A stretch of 64,000 bases of DNA from Chalciporus piperatus. Lineage: Eukaryota; Basidiomycota; Agaricomycetes; Boletales; Boletaceae. The notes beneath the pieces are model-generated. The model saw only the letters and a list, made by a program, of their open reading frames with translations, ran no database searches and was not told where the DNA came from. The position numbers and the translations under genes are program-made. How positions within the stretch are numbered: position 1 is the first letter of the stretch; every line of letters starts with the position of its first letter. Positions 598 to 47,001 of the stretch are shown here, in pieces. The DNA is taken from positions 62,001 to 126,000 of the forward strand of contig JBBPTG010000053.1 in NCBI GenBank assembly GCA_038093975.1. Direction: 5' to 3'.

Positions 598-3085
598 TTA
601 CTCCTTCTCCCGAGGTGTGTAGTAACTCGGGAAAATCCCCGTAACGTCTTCATGATACCAGAACTTCCCGTAGACCTTGTGATCTACGCTCGCTCGCTCA
701 CTAGACTCCGTCTCATAACCCTCCTGTCTCACAATCTCAATCCACATCGCTCCAAGTCCGAGACCCGGCACGAGCGCAAGCATCTCCGCGAGCGACGGCT
801 CAACGAGGAGAGTGATGTTATCGGTAAGGGGGTTATGTGGTTTACGATCCGTTCCTGTGGTATCCATGGTCTCGTTGTCTGAGGGCTTGTTCGGATCAAT
901 GACGGGCCCACGAGACGTTATCCAGATTTCAGGTCCCGAGATATCCCCTTCCTCGCGACCCCAAGGTTCGAGGATGACTTTCGCAAAGCGGGCATCGAGC
1001 TCTGCCTCGACGCCACTCGGTGAGGGCGTCCACTCTCCTCCATCGTTCGTCTTCTTGGGACTTCTTTGACTGGCAGGCAAAGGCGTGCCCTTTGGGTGGT
1101 TAGGGGGGAAGTGTACGGCAACAACGCGGCGTGTTGAGCATTCCACGATGCCCGTCGTGTGCGTCAACGGAAAGACGTTCGGTCCGAGGAGCGCAAAAAG
1201 GGAGCGAGTGGGGCGGTTCCAACTAGCATCAGTCTGGTCGGCGTCACCATTCGCTCCCTGGCCCTCCTTGGATCCTTCGTCCCCAGGCACGGGATCGGTG
1301 GCCCATTCGTTATTCCATCCAGTAGATTCACCGTCGCCCCAACCTCCGCCCCAACCATTATCATCCATTTGGTTGTCATCGATTGGGGGGACGAGGGATG
1401 AAACTGTGTCGGCAGGAACATCCATAACAATATTGTCCTCGATTGCGTCCTTCAACTGCATTTCTGCTTCTGTAGGAAGTTCGATGTTGATCTGATTGCC
1501 AGTTGCGGTGTCGGTCACGTTGATAGACGCTTCTCAGGAAACGAAGATGAGCTAATGGTTCCAAGAAGGATTTTGAGGGATTACCTTGAGGTTTCTGGTC
1601 AGTCGTGGCGGCATTTGTAGTGCTCTCGAACGCAAAATTCATCCCTCCGTGCCGGCCAAAGAACTCTCTGCACGCTTCATTAAAAGCATCAGGGATCGCC
1701 TGCCCCACCTTGTACGTCAAGGGAAGTTCCTTCTTCGCATGTTCAACAGTTTCGAGGGCGTGCTTTAAACCCCGCTGATACGTAGATTCGGGGAGGACGC
1801 GGTTGCGCAGAACAAACGCAAGGAAGAACGATATGAGACGTGGGGTATTTGTCAAGTTACGCTCACTCCTTAGCAAGACACGATCGCGTTAACACTATGA
1901 CCAGGCAATCATCAAAAATTAGACGTACCATATAAGCCCATGTTCGCGCATGAACGAAGAGAGGAAGATCCGGATAGCTTTCTCAGGATCGCTGAGGAAA
2001 ATGGATATTTTTTCTTCTCTTGCTTCTTCTTCGTTCTTGTGAGGATCAGGAATCGCGCCACTCTCTTCGTCTTCGACGTTTCCCCCGTCGGAGCGCTGAC
2101 GTTTGATCGGTCGGGCATCAGCGTCCGGTTCAGCGTCGCCACCGTATTCTTCGTCATCGGAGTCGAAATCAGGGGACGCATCGCGAGCATACTTCTTTGC
2201 GCCGACCTTGCGATATACAGACGGATTGACGAGTAACCCGGTGAAGAGACGGAACTGCATGTCGTCCAGTCAGAACAATTGAATCGATTAGACCGGTATA
2301 CCAGCTACCTGATCCCATAGATTGTTCAGACCCAACGCCACGGGTGGCCACGGCCTTCCAGTACGGAAATCATACGCGGATTGGAAGAACCTATCAACTG
2401 GCGAGATGTTCCTGGATCATTCAAAGCGAGACCACATCATCAACCATGTTCCTCACTCGCCGTGCAACACAAAAAAGTGTACTCACAACTCATATCGTCC
2501 CTTCGTCACTCTAAGATCTTCACCCTCCTCCCACTCCTCATACCAAGGCAACTTCTTTACGGGAACACCCTCGGCCACAGCAGCTTTCTTCTTCTTTCGT
2601 TTCTTGCGAGTGCTACTCTTGGCTTCGTCGGTAGCATGTTTGACGCGAAGTTCGACGGTCGGGATACCGAGCGCGTCGAGCTCAGGTTCCTCGTCGCCTC
2701 CATCGTCGCCAGCTTTCCTGACCTCTGAGAACAACTGGATACCACGAGCTTTGAAGTCTTTGAAAGGCATGATCGTTGCACCCTCAGGCGGCTTTGGGAA
2801 TGGTGGAAACTTGATGAACGGCGGATCCTGTGCGACGGTCGTGTTGGAAGTGCTTGGCTCTAACACCGACATTGGGGCTATAGACGTACTTGCGCAGGGT
2901 CGATAGCAACGATCTAGTACGCGGGCAATAGATTCGGCTACTTTGGTGATCAATCTGGCCGTGAAGAAACCTGACGCTGATAATCAGTGCCATAACTTGG
3001 TCTAGACTCTCATAGGAGCTTCCTGCCAAATACTACCTTCCTCATCGGGAATGTTAATGGAGTCTGACCATTTGTTTTCGTACGT
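598..3085 (-). CDS. Arb1-like Argonaute siRNA chaperone subunit (5' end unresolved)
   Basis: Six exons give one continuous frame of 725 codons: 3037-3085, 2487-2970, 2309-2411, 1929-2254, 1585-1868 and 598-1529. The first exon opens in frame after a TTAG acceptor and no start codon was found, so the N-terminus is missing. The central part matches my recollection of the fungal Arb1 family (ARC complex, which holds duplex siRNA with Argonaute in fission yeast): a helix with FLAFVLRNRVLPE, then AKKELPL, then DAFNEACREFFG. Other visible features are a KKRKKKK basic tract, a KRQR basic/acidic linker, and, at the start of the last exon, a glycine-tryptophan stretch with several GW/WG pairs of the kind that bind Argonaute. 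The family name is from memory. The exon chain itself is well supported because all six phases agree. The 5' end abuts the divergent F-box gene. Confidence 0.58.
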
Positions 3086-3168
3086 CTAAGTATCTGGTTC
3101 CTGCTTTCGTTGCAGAGAAAGAACTCCAAACGCGCGTTTTAAGACGTCAAACTATACCTAGCGATACA

Positions 3169-4841
3169 ATGACGCCTATGCTCGTAGAGACACTTGGCAC
3201 TCATTTCCATGCCTCCAACCCAAATCTTCAGCAAAAAAACCTGACCTTGCCTACTGATATAATCTACGACATCGTATCCTTCACGGGCCCCATCGAACTC
3301 TTCTATCTTCGAGCGGTACGGTGGACTTCCTTTTCGTGTCTCACCCTCCGATTGCTCACGACCTCACGTTCCGGTGCGCTCACAGGTTTCGAAACAGCCT
3401 GAGTTTCACGCGATCGCCAATGATCCGACTGTCTGGCGGACGAAATACAAAAACGCCCGTTTACCCCGCCCTCCTGGACCATTTCCGTGGCAATCGCTTC
3501 GCTTTCTCCAGCGTACTCTTGTACGGTCCGCGCGGTTGGCACAAACGTGGACTATGCAACCACTGAAAATCGTCTCATCGCGTCAAGTAAACGAACTAAA
3601 CGCCGACACTCACAATTGCGCGTGGGCCAGCAAGCGATGGTTGATAGTTGGCAGAGAGTCAGAGCTCGTGTCGCATGACATCGATACAGGGTCTCAGCAA
3701 ACTCTGTGGGAGAGCAAGTCGATAACAGGTTGGATAGTATGTTCGATCGTATCAGCCCGGGGACACTTTATCTACTTGGTCGTGCGCGAAGGACGTGGAG
3801 ATCAGCACGACGCAGTGCACGTATTCCATTTACACAGTTCCCACTCGTTCCTCACAATCTTCTCCACAGAAAATTACTGGAGTTTGAAGCAGATCATGAT
3901 TCCGGTCATCTGTTAGGACCCATCATCATTGATGTCCCTCTAGCGTGTATAGAGATGACAGGGACATATCTCCATGCTATGAGCACAAATGCACCATTCG
4001 TGTACATTTCTGTCGATCCCTCGGTGCCAGACGGCGTTGGCGAAATCGTGATATTCGACGTACGAACTCGGATCTTCTACAAGTTTCCCGGGCTTACATC
4101 CCAGCTGGTGCGTGGCTGCGAGACAGAAGAGCTTGGATACTACTCACCTCGGTAGAATAGGATGAATTGCAGTCAGTGGATCTGGCCCTTTCAGCCAATG
4201 AGGTCTTGCTCGCGTCCACTCATATAATTGTCGTGTACAACACCTACCTTGCGGACGACACTGATGCAACCGTCACACAAGCGTTCGTTGTCCCGAACGA
4301 TCCACACCCAAGTAGCGATCGAATCCCCGAACTTCGCCTCTCCCACGAGATGATCCACAAACGAACCTCCGGACCATATGATATCCTCCGAGATTCGGTG
4401 ATAAATCGTATCGACGGGTCGACAATGCTCTCGCTCCTGAGTTCTGCGTGGTTGCGGTTCTATTGCACCGAGTTATCCTTGCCACGATGGCAAGACGATG
4501 GCATCGCTCGGATATCTTCTCAGGAGGGCCAGATCCTCAACTTGGGAGAGCAACTGGGCTGCAACCGCGTGTCGTCCTTTGACAACGGCTTCGTCAGAAC
4601 TCTCTGCATATTAGATAGCAGTGGTCGTCTTGCCAGATTCATGATCGATGCTTCTGGGGAAAGAGTTGAAATTGACTTTGTTCCTTCGTCATCCGTCGAC
4701 ACTGGTGTCGACTTTTTTGACAGCGGGTCGAAAATTCACTGGTTTGATGGTGTGAGGGGAAGGATATGCTATTCAAAGCTTAGGGATGATCGGGAAGGGG
4801 ATAATGGTGGTCGTGTTACTGTTATCGTCGGACTGGAATAG
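3169..4841 (+). CDS. F-box-like protein, paralogue 1
   Basis: Predicted exons are 3169-3315, 3386-3816, 3870-4107 and 4173-4841, giving 494 residues. The N-terminus has an F-box-like helix (LPTDIIYDIVSF... then LFYLRAVSKQ), followed by the LPRPPGPFPWQS motif and a long beta-rich C-terminal half. That layout is usual for the large Agaricomycete F-box families, which act as substrate adaptors of SCF ubiquitin ligases; no specific substrate can be inferred. Two paralogues with the same exon layout lie at 19.4-20.9 kb (minus) and 45.4-47.0 kb (plus). The second intron aligns with those of the paralogues only if its donor is GC (3817-3818) instead of GT, so splicing may be weakened. The ATG at 3169 is the first in frame, but the true start could lie further upstream. 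Confidence 0.7.
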
Positions 4842-5073
4842 ATTTTCCTGACATGTCGAGTTTGACGGTATTGATAACGTGCAGGCGGTCTAGGAGCGAC
4901 ACTCATCGGGAACCCTCTGACCAACTGAACCTAGAACCGAGCAAGTCAACAACAGTAGGGATGACCAATGAATGTGTGACTAAAATTACAGTGTACACTT
5001 CAGGAACGTAAAAAAATCAATGCCCTACGCAATCCAAATACAAAGAAAGTTCTCAACAGACCACCCGCCACCT

Positions 5074-43261: not shown

Positions 43262-43693
43262 TGTCGAAATCGCGTCTTGTTACAACTTGCGTCGAAGTAC
43301 GGCCGACCGAGAAACCTTGCAGAGCGAGTGTGAGGTTGTGAGTGGAGAAATGGGAGCTGCGGAGGTACAAGGAGGTCTAAGGAGGCACTGCTCCAAGAGC
43401 ACTCCAAGACAAACTTCCAAGACAAATGATCGACGAGGCTACGTCACCGGACTGGTCGGCTTTGAAACAAACGAACTGCGGATTGACCGTCGGTTCTGTT
43501 CGGAACATTGGCCTCGCCGATTACTTGTAACTTACTGGACACAATGATCCCGGATGTCCCAACAAAAGTCTGACAAGGTCTGACAGCGGTTGGATAGCGC
43601 AATAATCGTCAATGACGTAAAGCATCCATTGAATGCAGCTCCGAACGAGCTTGGCGACGGTGGCATGCTGTGGCATGGTGCCGTCTGTTCATT
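43262..43693. other. Protease promoter region left of the transposon
   Basis: About 430 bases, no gene seen. It ends at the 9-bp target duplication of the adjacent element. Confidence 0.5.
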
Positions 43694-43702
43694 CCCTACC
43701 TC
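43694..43702 (+). repeat. Target-site duplication, left copy
   Basis: CCCTACCTC, identical to 45143-45151 on the other side of the element. Confidence 0.88.
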
Positions 43703-43752
43703 TAGGCTCGGACCAGCCGTTTCAAACCCCGCTGACGTGGCGGGAGAAACGG

Positions 43753-43925
43753 CTGGGCTCACTCGGGCCACTTTTGGCAGTGTCTGCCATTCTCAAGAAT
43801 GGACTTGGTGAAATTTCGCTCTGGATGACCATTCCCCACTCAAAAAAGGTTTCTGAGGCGACTGATTTTTTGTAATTTATGTACAACAAAAACCCGTTTT
43901 GAATACACTTGAAAATTATATTTTT
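43753..43925 (+). repeat. Long inner inverted arm, left
   Basis: Begins CTGGGCTCACTCGGGCCAC and is the inverse of 44888-45058 with only a few mismatches and single-base gaps over about 172 bases. Just outside it, 43713-43755 can fold into a hairpin with CCAGCCGTTTC / GAAACGGCTGG arms. Confidence 0.9.
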
Positions 43926-43960
43926 TGTGCTCGAGGTTGGTGCTTTAGTAGTCGTTTAAC

Positions 43961-44794
43961 CTAATGACCATAGTAGTACTGTGGCCAGTAATTCCCTGAA
44001 GCTAGGGTACTATAGTCAACAGAAGGTACTTGTGATGGTAGCTGAGATCTTAGTGTATCGTGCGGGTATGAATCAAATGTTCCAAGCAGCTGGGATGAGG
44101 ATGATGCCGAAGGTGGATGATATTGGTGGACGGGTGTCCCTGGAAAGCTAGACTCGGAGGCCCGGGTGGACTGCTGTAACTCCTCCGCAATGTAAAAGCT
44201 TGCCAATGTGCTGCTCGTGATGTGGCCACCTTGGCCTGAGCTTGGAAACATGTTGGAGTTGAAGTGGTCTGCAAAGAGACTCGGAGGTGGGGCCCAAGAG
44301 GAGCCCGAGGATGGAGTTGTGGCGGAATCGAAGGTATGTGATGGATGCTGTACGGTTTGCGAAGCGAGAGCAAGCCTCAAACCCTGGGGGGCATGACTCC
44401 AGACTTCCGTTGGTGGATAGAGCATCTGGGGGGTTGCATAGGCTTGCATTGAATCAGAATCGGATGCCGCTCGCACTGCAGGACCATGAGCGTTACCCGG
44501 ATTGACGGGCAAAGAAACCTGCGTGCCAGTGACGGGTTGCAATGTGGAGTAGTGATACGACGGCAGCTGCTGGTTCAGATGATTCAACCCCGAGGATACT
44601 TGGGCCTCGAAGCCCCATGCAACTATGGTGCTGACTGAGCCGACATACCAAACATAGTGAGAAATGTACAAACCTGACGTTGACGGCATGGCTGAGCATA
44701 GAGAATCTTCGATGTGACAGTGTTCGTACAATGATGTTTGTGATGGGGGGTTTGTACTCCAGGATCCATTGGGGGTGATGGCACCATGACTCAC
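43961..44794 (-). CDS. Open frame carried by the transposon, unknown protein
   Basis: A frame of 277 codons with no stop fills most of the element. The product is rich in Ser, Pro, Gln, His and Tyr (for example SGLNHLNQQLPSYHYSTLQP and GTFDSYPHDTLRSQLPSQV), a composition seen in activation regions of fungal transcription factors. There is no DDE, zinc-finger or other transposase feature. The first codon of the long frame is GTG within a possible GTGAGT donor, so the real start is either an internal ATG (44692, MPSTSG) or a short upstream exon. It may be a captured piece of a host gene. No similar sequence is elsewhere in the window. Confidence 0.45.
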   Translation of the reverse strand: MSHGAITPNGSWSTNPPSQTSLYEHCHIEDSLCSAMPSTSGLYISHYVWYVGSVSTIVAWGFEAQVSSGLNHLNQQLPSYHYSTLQPVTGTQVSLPVNPGNAHGPAVRAASDSDSMQAYATPQMLYPPTEVWSHAPQGLRLALASQTVQHPSHTFDSATTPSSGSSWAPPPSLFADHFNSNMFPSSGQGGHITSSTLASFYIAEELQQSTRASESSFPGTPVHQYHPPSASSSSQLLGTFDSYPHDTLRSQLPSQVPSVDYSTLASGNYWPQYYYGH

Positions 44795-44887
44795 ATTGCG
44801 TTGGACATGGACGGAAATGACTTCGTGGATACAAATGAGCTCGAGGATGGATCAGACTCGGAAATAGAATACTAGGATAATTAGTAA

Positions 44888-45058
44888 ATATACATTTTCA
44901 AGTGTATTCAAAACGCGTTTTTGTTGTACATAAATTACAAAAAATCAGTCGCCTCAGAAACCTTTTTTTGAGTGGGGAATGGTCATCCAGAGCGAAATTT
45001 CACCAAGTCCATTCTTGAGAATGGCAGGCACTGCCAAAAGTGGCCCGAGTGAGCCCAG
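44888..45058 (-). repeat. Long inner inverted arm, right
   Basis: Reverse complement of 43753-43925 apart from a few substitutions (for example CCCGTTTT/CGCGTTTT) and single-base length changes in the A runs. Confidence 0.9.
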
Positions 45059-45142
45059 GCGTTCTGTAGAGTTTCGCCTTTTCACCCTCCGCCTGTCAAA
45101 ACGAAAAGGCGGTAACTCGGCAGATCGTCCGGTCCGAGGCTA

Positions 45143-45151
45143 CCCTACCTC
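45143..45151 (+). repeat. Target-site duplication, right copy
   Basis: CCCTACCTC, identical to 43694-43702. Confidence 0.88.
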
Positions 45152-45404: not shown

Positions 45405-47001
45405 ATGGAGGACATCTTCCCCCTAGAAATCATCTTCAAGATCATATCTTTGCTTGATCTCGTAGATGTTCTTCGGCTGCGAAGGGTAGGCTAATCCTTC
45501 TTGAGTCTTGCCCGAATGTCTGGCATTTGACTAACTCCTGTCGAGGTTTGCAAGCAGCTCTGTGATATCACCTATGATGCATCAATCTGGAGGCATCTTT
45601 ACGCAAATTCTCCCTTGCCTCGCCCACCTGGTCCATTCCCTTCACAGTCTACTCGATTTCTCGAGAATACCCTCGTGCAATCAGCACAGTCAGGGAAATC
45701 CTGGACCACGCACCCAACCTCACACATTTCAAGGACGGCGGTTACAACCGGATCACGGCTAGTGTCAAGAATCATATTGAGGGGATGGTATCTCATTTTG
45801 GAAGAATCCAGACGGATTGTTCTCCGAAACATAGACTCCGAGAGCTTCCGTCAAGTCGTCCGGGAAAGTGAGGAGCACTGGGAAATATCGTCATGGGCGG
45901 CGTGTTCCATCACTTCTCCCGAGGGTCAACGAGTATATGTTATACTCGCCGATCGTCCTTATTCGCGAGGGTATGTCCAATTTATTGCGCGGGACATTCA
46001 CATATGTCCAGACTGACGTTATTCGTCATACAGGAGGCTTCTGGAGTTTCATATGGACGTCGACTCTGGCCTTCTGGATCTTTGCGGGTCATTCGATATT
46101 CCTGCAATGAATACATGGCCAACTCCACGTCTCGTCGCGGATAGAGCGCCATTCGTATACTTGCACGGCCATCGTTTGATCTTCGATACGCGAACTCGAG
46201 CCTTCTATCGATTTCCCGAAAAAGGATCCAAACCGGTACGTATCTCATGATACAGGTATCCACGGATGTGTTCATTTGAGCATCGAAAACTAGGATGAGA
46301 CCCTGGTTTTACTTACAGCCACGCATATCGTTACTATCTATTCTCCACCTATAAACCAGGCTCAGGCGTCGCTTACCATACAAGCATTCACGATACCTCC
46401 CGATCCATCCCCAAATGACGCTCACTTACCCGTCTTACGCCTGACGCACGAGGGGACCATAAACGAACGCCTCATTCCCATCTCCCTTATCCGAAATTCT
46501 GTCACAGATCCGATATCTGGATCCACTAACCTCAGGTTTCTGGCTCAACGGAGCGAAAGTTCCTTGACACATTTCTTCTGCGTCGATCTGATACTCCCCG
46601 AACCTCGTCCTGGCATCGTCCTGCCAATCTTTACTGAAATCCAACCCATCTTCAGGGTCGAAGTACCCCTCTCCCATTGGGATGGGAATATCTTCGTACA
46701 CGCCTCAGACGATGGGCATGCTAGAGGATTCTTTGCAAGCGTGGACCGTCGCCGTGGAACTGCCCGATATCATACCGAGGTCGATCCCAATTACAGTTTC
46801 TCTATCTTCAAATTTACGATCGATGCCACTCGTGACAAATGTGTGGCGGTTGTTGGAAAGTCTTTGCCGCTTGGGTGGAAACATCTCACTCGACCCTACC
46901 TTGCCAGTGCTGAGACGGTCTTTGATGGAGTTAGAGGGAGGCTTTATTCTTCTCAGCTTGAGAGCGAGAGTCAATTCGTCGTTAGGAGCTCGGTTTTGTG
47001 A
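45405..47001 (+). CDS. F-box protein, paralogue 3
   Basis: Exons 45405-45485, 45546-45970, 46034-46235 and 46294-47001 total 1,416 bases, 471 residues. It has the most complete F-box of the three paralogues (FPLEIIFKIISLLDLVDVLRLRRVCKQL), then LPRPPGPFPSQS and the same beta-rich C-terminal half (GHRLIFDTRTRAFYRFP; LRLTHEGTINERLIP; FKFTIDATRDKCVAVVG). All three introns have GT donors. The second splits the codon before RLLEF, matching KLLEF and KLVVF in the paralogues. The start lies about 250 bases from the right end of the transposon, so the promoter may be affected by the insertion. Presumed SCF ubiquitin ligase adaptor. Confidence 0.8.

Follow-up and report, generated by a model that had tools for sequence, protein, structure and literature searches.

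What kind of transposon lies at 43703-45142 of a 64,000-nucleotide stretch of the Chalciporus piperatus genome (assembly GCA_038093975.1, contig JBBPTG010000053.1, positions 62,001 to 126,000, hereafter the window), and does the reading frame inside it come from the host or from the element itself? A preliminary description of the window had taken this 1,440-bp element for a Mutator-like element (MULE) that may have captured part of a host regulatory gene, like a fungal Pack-MULE. The analysis of the genome (35.5 Mb, 484 contigs) gives a different answer: very probably, it belongs to the DNA transposons of the DUF6589 transposase/RecQ-like helicase kind, as a non-autonomous copy with an internal deletion, and its features fit AcademH.

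Copies, mobility and internal deletion

The element has a perfect 9-bp target-site duplication, CCCTACCTC, on either side (43694-43702 and 45143-45151). Its 12-bp inverted ends, located by direct reading and a motif scan, are TAGGCTCGGACC at 43703-43714 (plus strand) and TAGCCTCGGACC at 45131-45142 (minus strand), and differ from each other by one base. The exact 12-bp motif has two matches in the window, one per element end; at two mismatches or fewer, seven matches were counted vs. a chance mean of 7.7, which is no excess. Further inwards, the left (43748-43923, plus strand) and right (44886-45063, minus strand) inner arms share 97% identity, with 43748-43852 pairing with 44959-45063 (96%) and 43842-43916 with 44894-44968 (99%). 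The duplication, inverted ends and inner arms, all listed in the preliminary description, were confirmed.

Two further copies are present in the genome, one of 2,517 bp on contig C60 (duplication GTACAAACG) and one of 5,317 bp on C102 (duplication GGGACTCAC), both with the same 12-bp end. All three copies of the window subfamily have perfect 9-bp duplications, each different, and it was such copies that had been proposed as a sign of mobility. The window and C60 copies show one difference over 1,440 shared bases, while C60 and C102 differ by four mismatches and one gap over ~2,518 bases, nested element excluded. A stretch of 1,077 bp is present in C60 and C102 and absent from the window copy, where the junction (44793-44794) shows ~1 base of microhomology. 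Since these 1,077 bp are kept in both other copies, the window copy derives from the 2,517-bp C60 form by internal deletion. As a whole, these data support a recently mobile, non-autonomous fungal element bounded by terminal inverted repeats. No complete copy of the window subfamily was found in the genome and, as for an empty site, the joined flanks had no continuous match in the assembly.

DUF6589 remnant and related elements

On its plus strand, the longer form on C60 and C102 codes for the C-terminal part of a DUF6589 protein, adjoining the right inner arm. One exon matches DUF6589 over 44 residues (E 4.8e-9), and profile positions 333-410 are matched across an apparent intron (E 1.2e-23). 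The window copy retains the final 27 codons and the stop of this gene (44792-44872, plus strand), i.e. residues 183-209 of a 209-aa exon in C60 and C102. The top DUF6589 match came from Tylopilus felleus (82%).

The predicted fold of DUF6589 resembles those of the DDE transposases Hermes, P element, Tn5 and RAG1 (Foldseek, followed by VIA-align as a re-examination of the Foldseek matches, folds outside that list being possible as well), and near-invariant D, D and E residues are present. The nearest solved folds, hAT (Hermes), P element and RAG1/Transib, share ~8-12% identity with the model; target duplications are 8 bp long in hAT and P elements and 5 bp in Transib. A sequence search for solved relatives of DUF6589 returned none at E ≤ 1, and a literature search found no paper naming DUF6589.

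Across the genome, the PF20231 (DUF6589) profile gave 46 matches, which manual merging reduced to 25 loci; a number of these bear the end TAGTCTCGAACC with a palindrome directly after it. Motif TAGNCTCGRACC occurs 72 times in the genome vs. 34 for a reversed control, and lies within 6 kb of 8 of the 25 loci (~0.6 expected), two of these eight being the window family itself and two others sharing one end. The remaining 17 loci have no TAGNCTCGRACC within 6 kb, and other end types must therefore exist. Related elements with TAG.CTCG.ACC ends in this genome carry both a DUF6589 protein and a RecQ-like helicase. The helicase gene faces the DUF6589 gene on C168, C215 and C225, with DEAD domains matched on C215 and C225 and the C168 helicase frame read by eye; in the longer form of the window subfamily, the two gene remnants are oriented outwards, the reverse of the arrangement in these three relatives. 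Among 64 helicase matches in other Agaricomycetes, 23 have a DUF6589 match in the same species on a contig of equal size.

Shorter relatives, likewise decayed, measure 4,511 bp (C201), 2,011 bp (C1 and C6) and 116-124 bp (C120, C350 and C116). Thirteen paired-end candidates, including the three window-type copies, comprise seven with perfect 9-bp duplications, one with 7 bp, three with none and two chance pairs. Concerning the ten candidates outside the window subfamily, the duplication is a perfect 9 bp on C1, C6, C201 and C120 and 7 bp on C350, and no target duplication was found at the paired ends of C116, C168 and C215; C121 and C188 were judged chance pairs because one side has no palindrome.

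Several side observations were made on these relatives. The 116-124-bp elements (L077, L078 and L079, on C116, C120 and C350, respectively) are barely more than two palindromic ends. In the 2,011-bp element L083 (C1; also C6), a ~183-bp stretch at element positions ~822-1004 has at least 11 other genomic matches at 94-99% identity and is probably an independent small repeat travelling with the element. The nine bases CCATTCCCC flank opposite element ends, the right end of L045 (C215) and the left end of L021 (C391), pointing to either recombination or an assembly switch between copies that are nearly identical. L020 and L024 form a diverged DUF6589 subfamily in which, by eye, the LDN, GGDGLT and LLETL motifs are kept; its ends were not found.

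Probable placement with AcademH

AcademH DNA transposons are reportedly treated by Kojima 2020 (Mob DNA 11:15). According to a passage by Kojima (PMC10045372), they have 9- or 10-bp duplications and encode a helicase, and the present element is placed with AcademH by architecture, its 9-bp duplication and the helicase of its relatives fitting that description. The duplication length holds for all three copies of the window subfamily. The helicase is found, as a DEAD match, in the relatives on C215 and C225, the window's own subfamily showing a weak tail match only. As for a DDE transposase, the window element contains the DUF6589 remnant, and the DUF6589 model is DDE-like. The likeness lies in a DDE-type transposase and a helicase in related elements, the 9-bp duplication and the occurrence in fungi; unlike in AcademH, neither gene is intact in the window copy, and the gene remnants of its subfamily point outwards. 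Non-autonomous Academ elements are also noted in Marasmius oreades (PMC8290104). Like the window element, they come from an Agaricomycete, lack autonomy and are classed by their ends and duplication length; that passage makes no mention of end palindromes.

Terminal palindromes

Between the 12-bp ends and the inner arms lie two palindromes. The left one (43715-43754, plus strand; folding and end alignment) has a 9-bp outer stem, AGCCGTTTC/GAAACGGCT, and the right one (45057-45130, minus strand; folding) a long imperfect stem with the perfect core CGCCTTTTC/GAAAAGGCG at 45075-45111. The stem-loop zones reported earlier stand up to shuffling: of 1000 dinucleotide shuffles each, 4 equal the fold of the left zone (45 nt) and 5 that of the right zone (74 nt, a length picked after the fold was known). 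When the length is held at 60 nt, significance is lost for the right zone (equalled by 112 of 1000 shuffles), because 60 nt truncates its longer stem. Stretches of the same lengths, sampled along the window at 37-base steps, matched the left zone in 0 of 1,729 cases and the right zone in 7 of 1,728.

What these palindromes do is a separate question. An alignment was made of seven ends from five families (both ends on C168 and on C215, one each on C34 and C121, and the left end of the window element), leaving out the right end of the window element and the relics on C116 and C345. The stem sequence varies between ends and families, and a change in either arm is accompanied by a matching one in the other. 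With the stem set on one of the seven ends, 80.5% of the cells pair and 11 pairs are changed on both sides; the observed number of both-side-changed pairs or cells was reached in 0 of 500 shuffles, and registers slid by 1 to 3 fall far short. Arms of the same end pair at 96 of 102 positions vs. 344 of 518 for arms of different ends, and a single one of the 5,040 possible arm assignments, the true one, reaches the observed pairing. Folded singly, the six related ends were equalled by 0 to 31 of 1000 shuffles and the left end of the window element by 5 of 1000.

Two readings of these data were weighed. In the first, to which we give about an even chance, no hairpin is formed: the palindromes would be paired duplex binding sites (inverted half-sites) or template-switching products of repair. 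The outer bases of both arms are indeed conserved in sequence too, whereas the 11 stem pairs changed on both sides, matched by no shuffle and no slid register, speak for pairing. Moreover, the fold has gone from the C116 and C345 relics, which keep 90% identity over 80 bases and 87% over 46 bases, respectively: 638 and 487 of 1000 shuffles do equally well there. This too tells against a palindrome without a hairpin. In the second reading, the ends would be partly recognised as DNA hairpins, with pairing rather than sequence selected and the element's own RecQ-like helicase exposing the hairpin for the DDE transposase. Two points weigh against a strict need for hairpins: the left palindrome of the 116-bp C120 element (L078) is without the 3' arm, yet this element is flanked by a perfect 9-bp duplication, and several ends have mismatches at outer pairs 2 and 3. 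Template switching could also maintain matched arms without selection, covariation fitting either process equally. Recognition as hairpins is considered rather unlikely. A literature search on AcademH with terminal inverted repeats and hairpin found no paper.

The minus-strand frame

The Ser/Pro/Gln-rich frame of 277 codons reported earlier does exist (43961-44794, minus strand), as seen from the open reading frame and the comparison with the longer copies, but it opens with GTG under the bacterial code. As its first ATG is codon 36, a eukaryotic frame would have ~242 codons, and it is truncated by the deletion junction at ~44793. In the longer copies the frame extends over 448 codons from stop to stop, the 277 codons of the window being its C-terminal part. 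The first ~50 codons of the 448 are the antisense of the DUF6589 exon, and the real content of the frame therefore starts at the end of the DUF6589 homology, head-to-head with the DUF6589 remnant of the element.

From sequence comparison, the frame most likely derives from the element itself, as the decayed tail of its helicase, and not from a host gene that was captured, the last step, to the helicase, being weak. An HRDC-like helicase-end profile, built from 14 segments (11 motif-picked from 66 helicase matches and 3 from this genome), matches the frame with E 0.43 from residue 50 onwards. On C60 this match starts at ~93930, and the DUF6589 homology starts on the opposite strand at 93934. 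Weighing against a helicase tail, another frame of the window scored slightly above this match, and the tail, compared directly with the 66 helicases, gave nothing significant.

Alternatively, the element could be of the DUF6589/AcademH type and the frame either a fragment captured from the host or an accessory gene specific to the lineage. The weakness of the profile match, the outcome of the direct helicase search and a gene order unlike that of the relatives all favour this, as does the result that no homologue at E ≤ 1 was found when 7,995 candidate proteins of comparable length were scored. However, nothing else in the genome matches the frame, which is carried by the three element copies only; the HRDC-like match begins at the DUF6589 junction, as expected of two joined genes of one element; and Ser/Pro-rich tails also occur on other helicase frames of this genome. 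A captured or accessory frame is a tentative, somewhat improbable alternative to the helicase tail. As to the regulatory host gene proposed at first, neither a donor locus in the genome nor a homologue among those candidates came to light, and the proposal is not upheld.

Mutator-like and PIF/Harbinger identities

MULEs have target duplications of 9 to 11 bp, a range that includes the 9 bp of the window element, and its long inverted arms and internal frame are also reminiscent of a Pack-MULE. The PF10551 (MULE) profile has two matches in the genome, on C18 and C270, the one at C18 262974-263240 being above the cut-off (42.8 bits). Mobilisation of a captured host gene piece by such a MULE transposase is nevertheless highly improbable, and the Mutator/Pack-MULE identity was rejected: a motif scan found no exact TAGNCTCGRACC end on C18 (where the element itself was left unread) or C270, whereas DUF6589 loci have it, ends of this kind bound DUF6589/helicase elements, no MULE transposase is tied to them, the window element holds a DUF6589 remnant, and no donor gene was found in the genome.

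The surplus length of the C102 copy is due to a nested 2.8-kb element of PIF/Harbinger type (L009, ~2187-4985), missing from the window and C60 copies. PIF/Harbinger elements combine a 3-bp duplication with a DDE_Tnp_4 transposase, and the DDE_Tnp_4 gene in this 5.3-kb copy prompted the same identity for the whole; it was rejected, the gene sitting in the nested element, which has its own long inverted ends (GAGCCTGTCCAGC...) and a TTA duplication. A second gene of the nested element is weakly Myb/SANT-like. A Harbinger piece, searched by sequence for solved relatives, gave chance matches only.

Insertion neighbourhood

In the left flank, 154 bases (43403-43556) have a 99% copy on C88 (109041-109194), and the element therefore adjoins another repeated stretch. 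On the other side, the start of a probable F-box protein (45405-45485, plus strand; PF00646, E 0.0009, just under the cut-off) lies ~250 bp downstream of the insertion.

Proposed mechanism and significance

For the transposition of these elements, we infer that a DUF6589 transposase, supplied in trans, would bind the 12-bp ends together with the adjoining palindromes, cut at the 12-bp ends and insert the element with a 9-bp stagger. The helicase may help to open the ends, where the palindromes might fold as hairpins or just serve as paired binding sites. The 1,077-bp deletion may have arisen in incomplete repair, and the 277-codon frame would be what is left, in decayed form, of the sequence that coded for the tail of the element's helicase.

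In mushroom genomes, a 9-bp duplication alone can yield a wrong Mutator label. The Pfam family of unknown function DUF6589 is now tied to a DDE transposase fold, a helicase partner and defined transposon ends. Ends read as folded single strands are otherwise known from HUH-type elements such as IS200/IS605, and hairpin recognition, if true, would make this a DDE transposon with ends recognised in that form. Should the palindromes act as hairpins, the long-standing question of why a helicase is encoded by some DNA transposons would also become open to direct testing.
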